Positions 6,830 to 59,790 of a stretch of DNA of 64,000 bases are shown piece by piece. The stretch lies in assembly GCA_027492035.1 (NCBI GenBank), contig JAOZFT010000020.1, positions 1 through 64,000 of the forward strand. Direction: 5' to 3'. This stretch comes from Thermoproteota archaeon. Lineage in GTDB: Archaea; Korarchaeota; JAOZGF01; JAOZFZ01. The position numbers and the translations under genes are program-made. Numbering within the stretch: the first letter of the stretch is position 1; each line of letters starts with the position of its first letter. The notes below the pieces were generated by a model that worked only from the letters and a program-made list of their open reading frames with translations, did not search any database and had not been told where the DNA came from.

Positions 6830-7687
6830 TTAAGTTTTCTTCGGAATTGTTATAATGAGAGCTGTAAGTATCAAGAAGTATCCTGTTACTTGCCTTAAAC
6901 TATAGGTTTCTCCCAACCAAATTATTGCAAAGAAACTGGCAAAAATAGGTTCTAAAAGATAAATTATTGCCGCTTTAGTTGCAGATACTCCTCTCTGGCC
7001 AAGTATTTGAAGAGAAAGCGCTAAAGAAGTAGCTATAACTGCTAAATAAATCATCAAAACAGTTGGGAAAAACATAAATTTACCTTTCTCTTCACCCATC
7101 AATAAACCTGTAACTAAACTCAAAAGTGAAGTAGTTAATATTTCGACGAAAGTTAAGGGCAACACCTCAAATTTTTTTGAAAAAAAGCTTATTGTAACAA
7201 CTTGAAAAGCGCATGCAATTGAACAAATAAAAATCAATATGTCTCCGAAACCAAATGTCAAGTTTTCAGTTAAAGAAGATAAGGCAGTACCTGTTAAAGC
7301 AAACAAAACTGCTAAAGTTAATCTCTTTGAAGGTTTTTCTCTTAACGTAAAGTGTTCAATCAAGTAAACAAACACGACGTTTAAACTTGTTATAAAAGCT
7401 GCATTCGAAGCTGAAGTGAATTTTAACCCTATTGTCTGCAAAACAAAAGCTAGGAAATTAGTGAATCCGATTACAAAACCTGCTAACAAAGAGTTTCTAT
7501 TTAGCGAACTCTTAAATTTACCTATTAAAGGCATGAATACCAATGAAGCAATTAAAAAACGGTAACCAACAAAAAGAACAGGAGAAAAATAAGTTAAACA
7601 AATTTTAATAGCTGAAAAAGTAGTTCCCCAGATCAAAGTTAAAAGAAGCAAAATTAGGCTACTTCTTAACTCTTCATCTAATTTCAT
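6830..7687 (-). CDS. EamA/DMT-family transporter
   Basis: A 285-residue protein with ten predicted helices in two homologous halves. The first half begins LILLLLTLIWGTTFSAIKI, the usual EamA start motif. The second half has IYLLEPIFASFFAIIWLGE, the matching EamA repeat signature. Members of the drug/metabolite transporter superfamily export amino acids or other small metabolites. The substrate cannot be inferred and no partner gene lies next to it. Confidence 0.85.
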   Translation of the reverse strand: MKLDEELRSSLILLLLTLIWGTTFSAIKICLTYFSPVLFVGYRFLIASLVFMPLIGKFKSSLNRNSLLAGFVIGFTNFLAFVLQTIGLKFTSASNAAFITSLNVVFVYLIEHFTLREKPSKRLTLAVLFALTGTALSSLTENLTFGFGDILIFICSIACAFQVVTISFFSKKFEVLPLTFVEILTTSLLSLVTGLLMGEEKGKFMFFPTVLMIYLAVIATSLALSLQILGQRGVSATKAAIIYLLEPIFASFFAIIWLGETYSLRQVTGYFLILTALIITIPKKT

Positions 7688-10186: not shown

Positions 10187-10405
10187 AGCCATAAATTTCA
10201 TTTAACTCCTGCGTCCTGTCTAAGTTATAGAGTAAATTTCTTCTTTGATTTTATAAATTGTTTAGTTCTACTTATTCTTAAAAGTGTGCTATTTTAAATA
10301 AAAAGTTTTAAGGAACTAAAAGTTCATTTACTCATTCCCTTCATACTTTGCCTCCTTGTTAATTTTTGTTTCAATTTTTGAGGGGAAGGGTGTTTATTTT
10401 TGCAC

Positions 10406-11596
10406 ATGGATAATCCGCCTTTGGAAGGTGTAAAAGTTTTAGATTTAACCCATGTACTAGCAGGTCCATTTGCTACAATGATTCTTGCAGACTTAGGAGC
10501 TGAAATAGTTAAAATTGAGAAGCCTGGTGTGGGAGATGATTCAAGGACGTTTGGCCCTTTCATAAAAAATGAAAGTGTCTACTTTATGAGTTTAAACAGA
10601 AACAAGAAAAGTGTTACTTTAAATTTGAAAACTGAAAAAGGGAGAAATATTTTCCTTAAACTTGTTGAGAAATTTGATGTGGTAGTGGAAAATTTCAGGC
10701 CGGGTGTAATGGAGAAGCTAGGTTTAGGGTACGACGTGTTAAGAAGAGTTAATTCCTCAATCATTTATGTATCCTGTTCAGGTTTCGGTTCTTACGGTCC
10801 ATACGCAAATAAACCTGCTTATGACATAATTATTCAAGGAATGGGGGGAATAATGAGTATTACGGGGGAACCGGGTAGGCCTCCTGTTAGAGTAGGAACT
10901 TCAATTTCTGATATAGTGGCAGGTTTATTTACAGCTATAAGCATTATTTCAGCTTTATACAAAAGAAACTTAACAGGTGAAGGGTGCAGAATAGATGTTT
11001 CAATGCTTGACTGTCAAGTGGCCATTCTTGAAAATGCCTTAGCGAGGTATTTAGCTACAGGTAAAGTTCCGGAGCCTTTAGGTTCAAGACACCCGTCTAT
11101 CACTCCCTTTGAGGCCTTTAAAACCAAGAATGGATATGTCATAGTGGCTGTAGGAAACAATAAATTATGGAAGAAATTTTGTGAAGCAATTAAAAAAACT
11201 GAACTAATTTCAGATCAAAGGTTCAAAAATAACGAATTAAGGACGAAAAATTATAATTCGTTAAAGAAAATTTTGTCAAAAATTTTAGCTGAGAAAACTA
11301 CAGAGGAATGGATTAAAATTTTCGAGGAGAAAGGAATACCTTGCGGGCCAATAAATACAGTAGATAAATTATTGAATGACCCTCAAATAAAAGCTCGTCA
11401 AATGATTGTGGAAATCTTCAAACCTAAAACGGGAAAAATTAAGGCCCCTGCTTCACCTATAAAATTTTCAAATTTTGAATATCGGGTGAGGTTTCCACCT
11501 CCAAACTTGGGTGAACACACAGCAGAAATACTTAAGAAGTTCCTTTCTTTGACAGATCAACAAATTAAAAAGCTTAGAGAGGAAAAAGTAATATAG
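10406..11596 (+). CDS. class III CoA-transferase (CaiB/BaiF family)
   Basis: A 396-residue protein (from the ATG at 10406) with the family start LEGVKVLDLTHVLAGPFA and ADLGAEIVKIEKP. The catalytic Asp is expected in IDVSMLDCQVAILEN near residue 200, the position that forms the acyl-aspartyl intermediate in formyl-CoA transferase. A C-terminal LGEHTAEILKK follows. It moves CoA between organic acids; the substrate pair is unknown. TTG at 10400 would add two residues. The next gene is a 3-hydroxyacyl-CoA dehydrogenase, so both may serve acyl-CoA metabolism. Confidence 0.9.
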   Translation: MDNPPLEGVKVLDLTHVLAGPFATMILADLGAEIVKIEKPGVGDDSRTFGPFIKNESVYFMSLNRNKKSVTLNLKTEKGRNIFLKLVEKFDVVVENFRPGVMEKLGLGYDVLRRVNSSIIYVSCSGFGSYGPYANKPAYDIIIQGMGGIMSITGEPGRPPVRVGTSISDIVAGLFTAISIISALYKRNLTGEGCRIDVSMLDCQVAILENALARYLATGKVPEPLGSRHPSITPFEAFKTKNGYVIVAVGNNKLWKKFCEAIKKTELISDQRFKNNELRTKNYNSLKKILSKILAEKTTEEWIKIFEEKGIPCGPINTVDKLLNDPQIKARQMIVEIFKPKTGKIKAPASPIKFSNFEYRVRFPPPNLGEHTAEILKKFLSLTDQQIKKLREEKVI

Positions 11597-57337: not shown

Positions 57338-57523
57338 TTACCATTTTCCAATCTCAAATTGATTCCGCAAGCTTCGGCAGGTGTTTTTACAAGATTTCAG
57401 AAATCTCTTCGCAACAGAAATGTAAGCCTTAACCATTTGGTAGAAATACTTTCTCAGTTTAATTTCTTTGATGAACTTGCCTATTAACTCACAGCGTCCT
57501 TGCGGCGTAAGCTTCTTTAATAT
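57338..57523 (-). pseudogene. recombinase- or transposase-like coding relic
   Basis: Bases 57150-57710 hold no intact gene. On the minus strand a 60-codon open stretch (57523 to TAA 57338) includes ELIGKFIKEIKLRKYFY and VKAYISVAKRFLKS. This looks like the SAM-like core-binding domain at the N terminus of tyrosine recombinases. In the next frame KTPAEACGINLRLENGKG follows, which instead recalls the C-terminal end of DDE transposases. The relic has no start and is frameshifted. It points away from the adjacent cassette region. Confidence 0.3.
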
Positions 57524-57688
57524 TCAGGCCAATAACTGATTATGTGAGTATTAAAAAATTTTATAAGAAGAACTTTATAAAAGTTCGTTTTAACCTCTAA
57601 ATTTAGAAGATTATGTGAATAAAGGTTTGTGAAATAATTGTTGTCCGAAATTGCGGCGACGGGAGAAAAAATTAAAAATAGATTACAT

Positions 57689-57700
57689 ACATTAAGTGAG
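57689..57700. repeat. left copy of 12-base direct repeat ACATTAAGTGAG
   Basis: ACATTAAGTGAG occurs here, just before hicB, and again at 59430-59441 at the end of the last cassette-like unit; the next three bases are GTG here and ATG there. The two copies enclose 1.74 kb of accessory genes and could be attachment-site or insertion-end sequences. Confidence 0.5.
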
Positions 57701-57710
57701 GTGATCAGGG

Positions 57711-57941
57711 ATGGTCATATTAACGGCGATAATTCACAAAGAAGAAGATATGTATGTTGCTGAGTGCCCAGAAGTTGGAACTGTAAGTCAGGGTAAAACT
57801 ATAGAAGAGGCAATTTACAACCTGAAAGAAGCAACAGAATTGTATCTTGAAGAATTCCCCCTGGAAGAGAAAGAACATCCGATTCTTACGACTTTTGAGG
57901 TATCTAAAGTTATGGGAGCAGAGAAAATTGCCAAAGCTTAG
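57711..57941 (+). CDS. hicB: HicB-like antitoxin
   Basis: A 76-residue protein with the short HicB/UPF0150 domain: LTAIIHKEEDMYVAECPEVGT, then SQGKTIEEAIYNLKEATELY. It is a partial RNase-H-like fold that inhibits HicA. GAGGTG lies upstream of the ATG. The stop overlaps the start of hicA by 14 bases. The order hicB-hicA is one of the two usual arrangements. Confidence 0.88.
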   Translation: MVILTAIIHKEEDMYVAECPEVGTVSQGKTIEEAIYNLKEATELYLEEFPLEEKEHPILTTFEVSKVMGAEKIAKA

Positions 57942-58158
57942 AAAGATTTCTGGGGAAGACGTAGTTAAGATATTACATAACAAATTTGGCTTTCAAATAA
58001 CAGGGAGAAAAGGTAGTCATGTTAGATTATCCAAAATGACGCCTAGTGGAAAAGTTGGGACTGTGGTTCCAATGCATAAAGAACTAAAGATAGGAACCCT
58101 CAGGGGTATCTTGAAGCTTGCAAAGGTAGATATTGATGAATTCTCTAAGTATCTATAA
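57928..58158 (+). CDS. hicA: HicA-like mRNA interferase toxin
   Basis: A 76-residue dsRBD-fold toxin: KISGEDVVKILHNKFGFQ, GRKGSHVRLSK with the catalytic His, VVPMHKELKIGTLRGILKLA. HicA cleaves mRNA. The start is set at TTG 57928, with GGGAG about nine bases upstream, giving the normal family length; a longer frame from 57847 runs through hicB and is not supported. It is the first unit of the cassette-like region. Confidence 0.88.
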   Translation: MPKLRKISGEDVVKILHNKFGFQITGRKGSHVRLSKMTPSGKVGTVVPMHKELKIGTLRGILKLAKVDIDEFSKYL

Positions 58159-58203
58159 GATTATGTCGTCACCCGCAAATTTCAGCTCCGCTCCGGTGCT
58201 AGC

Positions 58204-58303
58204 GCACTAGGACAATAGGGAGATATGTGGCTTCGCCTTCGACTATGCCCCAATCTGCTCCATTACTGTCCCGCAAACTTCACATATCCTCAAAACGTTA
58301 GGC
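58204..58303 (+). repeat. attC-like site A
   Basis: After hicA, an imperfect palindrome: GAGATATGTG (58220-58229) against CACATATCCTC (58281-58291), with one unpaired extra G, then the 5-base spacer AAAAC and GTTAGGC (58297-58303), which fits the R' consensus GTTRRRY. The expected left end is degenerate (CTAGGAC). About 100 bases long with a GC-richer centre. These are the hallmarks of an integron attC site. Confidence 0.5.
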
Positions 58304-58365
58304 GTAATTCCTGCGCGCCTCAAAGATCGAAAGCTTTATAAATATTTTTTAGATTGGCAAATATT

Positions 58366-58590
58366 ATGATAGTAGAAATTGTATTAAAAAACGAACCAAG
58401 TTTGGAACTTGAAGGCTATGAAAAAATAGAGCTTCCGAACGGAGCAATTTTTGCAAACCCAGTAGAAAAGAGGGTAGAGATAGTTGTGAAGAAACATCCA
58501 GATGGTAGAGTTAGTATATTTACAGACAAATCAGAAGTGATAAAATCAGTAGTGCAACTTGGAGAAGTTGTTGATATTCACGCAAAATAG
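58366..58590 (+). CDS. small hypothetical cassette protein
   Basis: A 74-residue soluble protein with alternating strands (IVEIVLKNEPSLELEGYEK, VEIVVKKHPDGRVSIFTD, VIKSVVQLGEVVDIHAK). No family recognised. ATG 58366 is chosen because CTTTATAAATAT ends about 25 bases upstream, as for a leaderless transcript; TTG 58354 is the alternative. It is the only gene between two attC-like sites whose ends GTTAGGC and GCCTAAC are exactly complementary. Confidence 0.55.
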   Translation: MIVEIVLKNEPSLELEGYEKIELPNGAIFANPVEKRVEIVVKKHPDGRVSIFTDKSEVIKSVVQLGEVVDIHAK

Positions 58591-58644
58591 GTCGGCGCGC
58601 TCGGAACTTCTCCGTTCGCTTTGCTCACTCCAATTCTTTGGGAT

Positions 58645-58739
58645 GCCTAACAGCGGTTACGAGGAAAATCTGTACTTCGTTTGATTTTTTCCCAAATCGC
58701 TCTTACGAGCAACTTCTCGTAACCACAATAATGTTCAGC
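58645..58739 (+). repeat. attC-like site B
   Basis: GCCTAAC (58645-58651) fits the attC R'' consensus and is the exact complement of GTTAGGC at 58297. GGTTACGAG (58655-58663) pairs with CTCGTAACC (58716-58724), and GTTCAGC (58733-58739) is a near R' match. A second inner hairpin TTACGAG/CTCGTAA (58703-58722) shares the right arm. Confidence 0.5.
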
Positions 58740-58762
58740 GGCAAGAATACCCAAATTTCGCC

Positions 58763-59005
58763 TTGCAGAATATAAAACTCCAAAATAATAACAACCCTCT
58801 AGAGCCCACGACACCCTTAAAATTTGTGCTTGGCGAAACTTCGCGCAACAGGAAATTAAGCGGTTTAACTTTGCTTCCAATTGTTGTTGGAATTTTGACA
58901 TTTGGAATAAAGCTTATTAGTAGTTCTAATTCAGAAATCTCAAGAGCGGGCTTCTGGTTGTTGCGATTTATAGTTGGTGGTATCTCATTTGCGGTTGCTA
59001 TGTAA
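58763..59005 (+). CDS. possible small two-helix membrane protein
   Basis: An 80-residue frame starting at TTG 58763, with an asparagine-rich N terminus and two hydrophobic stretches (LTLLPIVVGILTFGIKLI and FWLLRFIVGGISFAVAM). No ribosome binding site is convincing and no family is known. It would be the gene of the second cassette-like unit. The opposite strand is also open, so this call is weak. Confidence 0.35.
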   Translation: MQNIKLQNNNNPLEPTTPLKFVLGETSRNRKLSGLTLLPIVVGILTFGIKLISSSNSEISRAGFWLLRFIVGGISFAVAM

Positions 59006-59072
59006 CTTTTCGAATTGACTGTGTTATACGCGACGATTTGCTATCTTAAATACTTTAGAACGAGAGATGGGG

Positions 59073-59332
59073 ATGTTGAATGACGTATCACCGAAAAATC
59101 GCGTCAATTTACCTTTCTGAGGGGTTATCTTAGATTTAATTGGACATTAATAAAAAGCATTAGATTTCCGCCCGCTATCTTCTATTCTATCCTTGGAGGA
59201 TGTAGCATTATCCTGTTTACAGGAAATATTGCCTTTAAATCAATCATAATTGGCTTGTTGCTGGCATTATTTATTTTGCCTATTGTAATGCTGTTACCTA
59301 TCTCCCTTACAAAAGGGGTTTGGTTCAAATGA
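59073..59332 (+). pseudogene. frameshifted small membrane protein of a cassette-like unit
   Basis: ATG 59073 (or 59067) opens MLNDVSPKNRVNLPF and stops; a second frame continues LRGYLRFNWTLIKSIRFPP and two hydrophobic helices to TGA 59330-59332. One base change near 59115 (CCTTTCTGAGG) would join them into a ~86-residue membrane protein. A TATA-like CTTAAATAC lies about 25 bases before the ATG. The unit lies between GTTATAC (59023) and its exact complement GTATAAC (59351). Confidence 0.45.
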
Positions 59333-59350
59333 ACACGAATAACAAACGGC

Positions 59351-59438
59351 GTATAACAGAGTGTATCTGGCTCCATGCTTTAGAAACTTCGCCCAAACCC
59401 TGCTTCGCAGGACTTCAGATATGCTTGAAACATTAAGT
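59351..59438 (+). repeat. attC-like site C
   Basis: GTATAAC (59351-59357) is followed by an imperfect palindrome (GTGTATCTGG against TTCAGATATGC) with an inner hairpin CCTGC-TTC-GCAGG (59399-59411), ending ATTAAGT. Its right half, CTTCAGATATGCTTGAAACATTAAG, is a diverged copy of the right half of site A (CTTCACATATCC, then CAAAACGTTAGG). Confidence 0.45.
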
Positions 59439-59441
59439 GAG
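59430..59441. repeat. right copy of 12-base direct repeat ACATTAAGTGAG
   Basis: Identical to 57689-57700. It coincides with the right end of attC-like site C, so the repeat marks both borders of the hicBA-plus-cassettes segment. Confidence 0.5.
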
Positions 59442-59503: not shown

Positions 59504-59790
59504 ATGAAAAAAATCACTGGGTGAGATAAGAACAATTATCAAAAACATAAAAAAGAACTTAAAGGAAAGCATGGAGTTAAAGAAATAGGAATCTTTTTTG
59601 GGGTGAGGGGAGAAGCAAAGAAAAATAGCGATATTGACATACTGGTTGAATTCGAAAAGTCTACGGGATTCTTTAAATTTCTCAAACTGAAGAGATATCT
59701 GGGTAATTTAATAGGTGGAAAAGTGGATCTTGTACCTAAAAAAGGCGCTTAAACCACATATTGGAAAAATATATTCTTGAGGAAGTTGTA
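59504..59790 (+). pseudogene. decayed MntA-type minimal nucleotidyltransferase
   Basis: From ATG 59504 the frame reads MKKITG, an in-frame TGA, then KEIGIFFGVRGEAKKNSDID and ILVEFEKSTGFFKF, KVDLVPKKGA to TAA 59750-59752. GVRGE...NSDIDILVEF is the MntA nucleotidyltransferase core, with the normal GSYxRGE shortened. After the stop another frame continues ALKPHIGK and YILEEVV, the usual MntA end. One stop, one small deletion and two shifts make this a pseudogene. Confidence 0.7.

Follow-up and report, generated by a model that had tools for sequence, protein, structure and literature searches.

A cluster of attC sites without an integrase in an archaeal genome, and integron-type recombinases without the I2 insert beside the same attC family elsewhere

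Integrons and clusters of attC sites without an integrase (CALINs) were described in archaea by Ghaly et al. in 2022, who recognised six IntIs by their IntI-specific domain and found attIs downstream of intI (PMC9668308). The CALINs of that study, found in archaeal MAGs from nine phyla, are attC clusters that lack IntI and whose cassettes are small and for the most part co-directional. IntegronFinder 2.0 and other surveys likewise recognise IntI by the additional domain (PMC9024848, PMC2426708, PMC8352920). According to Escudero et al., the I2 insert is unique to IntI, is needed for cassette capture and confers single-strand recombination, and intermediates are lacking (PMC7790495).

We analysed a stretch of 64,000 nucleotides, called the window below, from contig C21 of an archaeal MAG (93% complete, 42 contigs, 1.87 Mb). 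On its + strand, from 57640 to about 59438, it carries a cassette array with three attC-type sites (A, B and C; spacings 340 and 610 bp), which we interpret with high confidence as a decayed archaeal CALIN. Two CALIN criteria are fulfilled: two or more attC sites are separated by under 4 kb, and no integron integrase is found nearby. A first-pass annotation of the same DNA had proposed an integron-like array on an archaeal chromosome; the cassette array stands, but we use the label CALIN instead of integron because neither an IntI or any other PF00589 recombinase nor an attI of the family described below turned up in the assembly. CALINs in Archaea are an already reported kind (that annotation had mentioned recent archaeal examples of integrons), and the window is a well-anchored further case. 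It shares with the published archaeal CALINs the features listed above; unlike them, its genome carries archaeal marker genes on the contigs concerned, has its 11 sites spread over five contigs and one cassette type in two copies, and shows strong decay. The features are as follows (R1 is the covariance model described below).

57341 to 57523, - strand: possible remnant of a tyrosine recombinase's N-terminal domain (tentative; hmmsearch E 9e-4)
57640 to 57646, + strand: R' core GTTGTCC, left end of cassette 1, followed by GAAATTGC, as also in the cassettes on contigs C9 and C15
57711 to 57941, + strand: HicB-like antitoxin gene, cassette 1 (Pfam PF15919, E 4e-5, under the curated cut-off)
57928 to 58158, + strand: HicA toxin gene, cassette 1 (Pfam PF07927, 56 bits, E 4e-15; firm)
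58209 to 58304, + strand: attC site A (R1, 42.8 bits, E 2.6e-8), with R'' GGACAAT at 58210, L arms GATATGTG and CACATATC, and R' GTTAGGC at 58297
58366 to 58590, + strand: ORF of 74 aa, cassette 2, without a Pfam match
58644 to 58740, + strand: attC site B (R1, 31.8 bits, E 1.6e-5), with R'' GCCTAAC at 58645, L arms GGTTACGAG and CTCGTAACC, and R' GTTCAGC at 58733
58763 to 59005, + strand: hydrophobic ORF of 80 aa, cassette 3, whose own attC is unrecognisable
59023 to 59029, + strand: R' core GTTATAC, left end of cassette 4, exact complement of the R'' at 59351
59081 to 59332, + strand: small membrane protein gene, cassette 4, frameshifted (frames read directly)
59350 to 59439, + strand: attC site C (R1, 69.6 bits, E 3.9e-15), with R'' GTATAAC at 59351, L arms GTATCTG and CAGATAT, and a mutated R', ATTAAGT, at 59432
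59521 to 59760, + strand: frameshifted gene of an MNT-type nucleotidyltransferase, remnant of cassette 5 (Pfam PF01909, 30.9 bits, over the cut-off), with no attC behind it

Homologues of the MNT nucleotidyltransferase occur in other loci with attCs of the same family (L091, L106, L127 and L156). A HicBA pair that resembles the one in the window lies downstream of the remnant of an integrase without the I2 insert in Argoarchaeum (L227, 4367-7252). The cores deviate at two places: the R'' of site A ends in AAT, and the R' of site C reads ATT. A second ATTAAGT, at 57691, is probably a mere part of the ribosome-binding region of hicB. Direct reading shows three signs of decay, namely the mutation of the R' of site C to ATTAAGT, the absence of an attC before 59023, and the frameshifts in the genes of cassettes 4 and 5. 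The array is probably old, a suspicion that the first-pass annotation had based on degenerate arms; the degeneration is confirmed.

The ends of the cassettes match each other. GTTAGGC at 58297 and GCCTAAC at 58645 are exactly complementary, as are GTTATAC at 59023 and GTATAAC at 59351; both pairs had been pointed out in the first-pass annotation and were found where it placed them. It had missed a third pair, GTTGTCC at 57640 and GGACAAT at 58210, which agrees at 6 of 7 positions, the four variable bases being exact. Because of this match, we set the left edge of the array at 57640 and not at 57689 as previously proposed. The matching breaks only between B and C, where one attC has been lost. 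Across other genomes, 48 pairs of adjacent attCs matched at 4.10 of 5 variable positions, a value reached in none of 20,000 permutations, versus 2.73 for random pairs. The bases just after R' are also conserved in loci L064-L143 (GAAAT, up to 88% at one position), where the 5' ends of different cassettes are alike beyond the known R' core.

Sites of the same kind were collected with a pattern first taken from the right halves of this genome's own sites, which found further copies in the same genome and intact copies in relatives. The final pattern was designed on the sites of this genome and two of relatives; it fixed the GTT/AAC cores and the TAT core of the arms and left most of the covarying positions free. 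Scanning genome contigs with it, where we estimate from its information content that about 0.1 chance matches would be expected, gave at least 118 matching stretches in archaea and bacteria. Among the matches listed were ANME-1, Methanosarcinales, Thermoplasmatota, Bathyarchaeota, Asgard, Aenigmatarchaeota and Hadesarchaea on the archaeal side, and Spirochaetes, Chloroflexi, Aquificota, Marinimicrobia, Bacteroidota and others on the bacterial side. A stricter pattern found no match in viral contigs. In 46 sites from outside this genome, 95% of the cells were paired, and 129 double changes were counted versus 43.8 +/- 6 in shuffles; the signal collapsed once one side was slid against the other.

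MAFFT misaligned the left arms of the few sites of the genome itself, and the covariance model R1 was therefore built from these 46 outside sites, with no site of this genome included. Searched over both strands of the 64 kb, R1 returned only sites A, B and C as significant, all three aligned end to end, and the next best hit had an E value of 0.49. With R1 in the place of the published attC models, the covariance check suggested in the first-pass annotation came out far above background. R1 is a family model, since it failed to recognise the class 1 attCs of R388 and R46. Structure alone is weak evidence here, because a naive hairpin scanner gave about as many matches in shuffled sequence as in the window; it was dropped. 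With isolated DNA strands, no clean attC fold was obtained for site A or site C, and folding plays no part in the argument. The case is carried by the family model, by the R'/R'' matching and by a cassette that has moved within the genome.

Over the whole genome, R1 found 11 sites on five contigs (three each on C21 and C9, two each on C15 and C37, and one on C10), versus none to two in other members of the phylum. Two further two-site arrays, at 218059 and 219652 of C9 and at 7408 and 8232 of C15, enclose cassettes whose ends match at 4 of 5 variable positions; the other four sites in the genome either stand alone or have opposite orientations. One cassette type, starting with GTTGTCCGAAATTGC, stands behind different attCs on C9 and C15, and the encoded proteins are related (MKMKNKTL... 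and MEMKNKTL...). When the two regions are compared, identity jumps at GTTGTCC, from 43-55% before it to 84-90% from GTT on, as is predicted by the movement of a cassette and not by a fixed repeat. A third homologue of the protein (43% identity) is encoded on C21 at 76766-77929 (L007, 12766-13929), without an attC. On C37 (L005, 4741-18544), the two opposed sites of the family lie beside a type III CRISPR-Cas (Cmr/Csm-like) cluster, one of them directly behind a gene at the edge of that cluster.

We considered the possibility that the sites are ordinary dispersed palindromic repeats between genes, either REP- or MITE-like or representing RNA structures such as terminators. Their scatter over five contigs, some of them as single copies, would fit such repeats, and so would the failure of the naive hairpin scan to rise above background. 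Yet repeats of this kind do not account for the agreement of R' and R'' across the enclosed gene, which lies far above permutation, nor for homologous cassettes that switch context at GTT; the same sites also follow an integrase and an attI elsewhere, with matching ends of the first cassette (see below), and no Rfam family matched them. The 11 copies in 1.87 Mb are not ordinary repeats, since the pairs on C9 and C15 enclose cassettes with matching ends. This explanation, which the first-pass annotation had named as one that would undo its reading, is in the main refuted, and we consider it very improbable.

The data being a MAG and the attC family occurring also in bacteria, the contig could in principle be a bacterial contaminant. 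An archaeal-type LeuRS (leuS_arch, 1093 bits) is encoded on the window's contig less than 2 kb from the array, and the large subunit of archaeal PolD about 0.3 kb from a C9 site, on a contig of 666 kb. Because these archaeal genes neighbour the sites, contamination is disfavoured; an archaeal-type TATA box recognised by eye near 58333, in cassette 2, also speaks against it, and we find this explanation scarcely credible.

The search of the genome for an IntI-type integrase, suggested in the first-pass annotation, found none: profile searches of the whole assembly gave no match to TIGR02249 or to PF00589. A model of the attI of the family, R2, had no match in the same genome, which does not exclude an attI of an unrelated type. 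By eye, an attI seemed possible at the left edge of the array, but it found no support from nhmmer or R2 and was rejected. The possible relic at 57341 to 57523 was the best match, in all frames of about 167 kb of the genome's own DNA, to a profile of attC-associated integrases, and its reading seems to resume after a +1 shift as KTPAEA. In view of its E value, a tBLASTn hint that an integrase lies upstream of the array counts as tentative at most, and we give the possible relic little weight. No tyrosine recombinase at all was detected in the genome, yet nearly all its relatives have XerA-type enzymes; the absence may reflect incompleteness (93%), and the integrase could lie in the missing part of the MAG. 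With no integrase left, no activity can be claimed for the cassettes of the window.

Where a platform survives in other genomes, its order is a recombinase, a conserved attI 58-175 bp downstream, and a first cassette with matching ends. We compared 19 loci in which an attC follows a co-oriented gene of such a recombinase, of which often no more than the 3' end is present. In 15 of them, a GTT core 58-175 bp past the recombinase stop codon matched the R'' of the first attC at 7-8 of 8 bases, and the DNA before this core was conserved, with the consensus AGTTCGGATATAATnCCAAATTGGAnGGATATACGAA..TTCGGATATACCnAAGTTATnCG. Judged from its sequence, this conserved DNA is the putative attI; direct reading also shows a GATAT core common to it and to the attC arms. 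A profile of ten attIs found attIs in some 30 more loci, and where an attC came no more than 2.5 kb after the attI, all 8 of 8 bases of the ends agreed in 20 of 35 cases and 6 or 7 of them in the others. At L154 and L167, the integrase gene has an open frame and shares its locus with an attI and an attC.

The recombinases near attCs of the family align to IntI1 except over residues ~196-247, which correspond to the IntI-specific I2 insert; I2 was absent from every attC-associated member aligned. Their nearest PDB structure is that of IntI (2a3v), with residues 179-238 unaligned. These insert-less integrases fall under the TIGR02249 cut-off and score 200-244 bits with NF040815 (cut-off 220). 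In a tree of 27 rows, eight of the nine attC-associated recombinases form one clade, beside recombinases of Bacteroidota plasmids. This clade joins IntI at 93/84, a junction drawn open, and its grouping with IntI apart from Xer is tentative; XerC/XerD and most XerA are separated, with 100/99 support, from the wider group that also takes in two further archaeal recombinases.

Loci were also fetched by homology of the recombinase alone; they came from the window's phylum or from genomes in which one or more attCs of the family had been found before. Directly after the insert-less recombinases there was an attI in 11 of 14 cases (7 of 10 when the training loci were excluded), and an attC lay within 2.5 kb in 7 of 14, whereas none of about 20 other tyrosine recombinases, some with little flanking DNA, had such an attI or attC. 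On the plasmid of Rufibacter tibetensis (NZ_CP012644; L244, 7626-14826), about eight small genes, all in one direction, come after an insert-less IntI-like recombinase, and between most of them lie attC-like palindromes with CCGTTRG or CGTTAG at the end; it looks like an unrecognised integron array, a more distant version. A plasmid of Chryseobacterium SNU WT5 (L243, 7965-10520) carries a recombinase annotated 'integron integrase' and, behind a RidA gene, a weak attC of the family (10365-10498, E 0.98).

Alternatively, a canonical IntI, with I2, might have built the array, in trans or before being lost, in which case the insert-less recombinases would not be the enzymes of this attC family. 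IntI1 does recombine archaeal attCs in E. coli (PMC9668308), and Argoarchaeum combines attCs of the family with a canonical IntI of 325 bits. However, a canonical IntI exceeded the cut-off in just 1 of 30 attC-bearing genomes, chosen mainly as archaeal, and the frequencies of attI and attC given above attach to the insert-less recombinases and not to the others. We regard the involvement of a canonical IntI as unlikely, though still possible. In Argoarchaeum, a canonical IntI and an insert-less relative stand head to head, about 0.6 kb apart, on a contig stretch without an attC of the family (L216, 3452-5829).

We lean, with reserve, towards the other reading, that the attC family represents an integron type shared by archaea and bacteria whose working integrase is an I2-less relative of IntI, an activity that is inferred. 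By analogy with the surviving platforms, it is fairly probable that the enzyme of the window would have been such a relative, with a co-directional attI close behind its own gene as its site of action. Each cassette would once have been a circle with one attC, joined to the array when a tyrosine recombinase cleaved the folded attC between G and TT; in the genome, homologous cassettes do start at this G/TT crossover point behind different attCs. The platform (integrase and attI) would later have been lost, or would have acted from elsewhere, and the mutated R', the lost attC, the frameshifted genes and possibly the integrase relic at 57341-57523 would be the marks of decay since then.

These platforms share with canonical integrons, such as the class 1 integron of R388, the R''-L''...L'-R' architecture, the G/TT crossover, the matching of ends, an attI, and an integrase for which IntI (2a3v) is the nearest solved structure. 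They differ in that the integrase lacks I2 (IntI1 residues ~196-247) and is encoded upstream of the array and co-directional with it, and in that the attI has the GATAT core of the attC arms. An orientation of intI reverse to class 1 is also found in the co-directional integrons of spirochaetes (Treponema and relatives), and attCs of the family occur in Spirochaetes. The known co-directional spirochaete integrons have the IntI-specific domain, unlike the Alkalispirochaeta locus L109, which lacks it and is frameshifted. The insert-less integrases score around the cut-off of the NCBIfam family NF040815, 'site-specific tyrosine recombinase/integron integrase' (XerA_Arch), but in the tree the attC-associated clade is distinct from the XerA copies found in the window's phylum and falls in with IntI, at the junction drawn open.

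In the literature searched, which did not extend to preprints, supplements or most subscription journals, no account of an attI/attC platform with an insert-less integrase came up. Their novelty is provisional; the platforms of this attC family are a probable integron variant so far undescribed. Surveys built on the I2 insert would probably label them CALINs and, if this is true, many CALINs would be complete or decayed integrons of the insert-less type, and nature would hold relatives of the intermediates that are missing in the origin of integron integrases. Should cassettes be moved by insert-less integrases, natural enzymes would make it possible to test how integrons arose, and the puzzle of attC clusters without an integrase would be partly explained.
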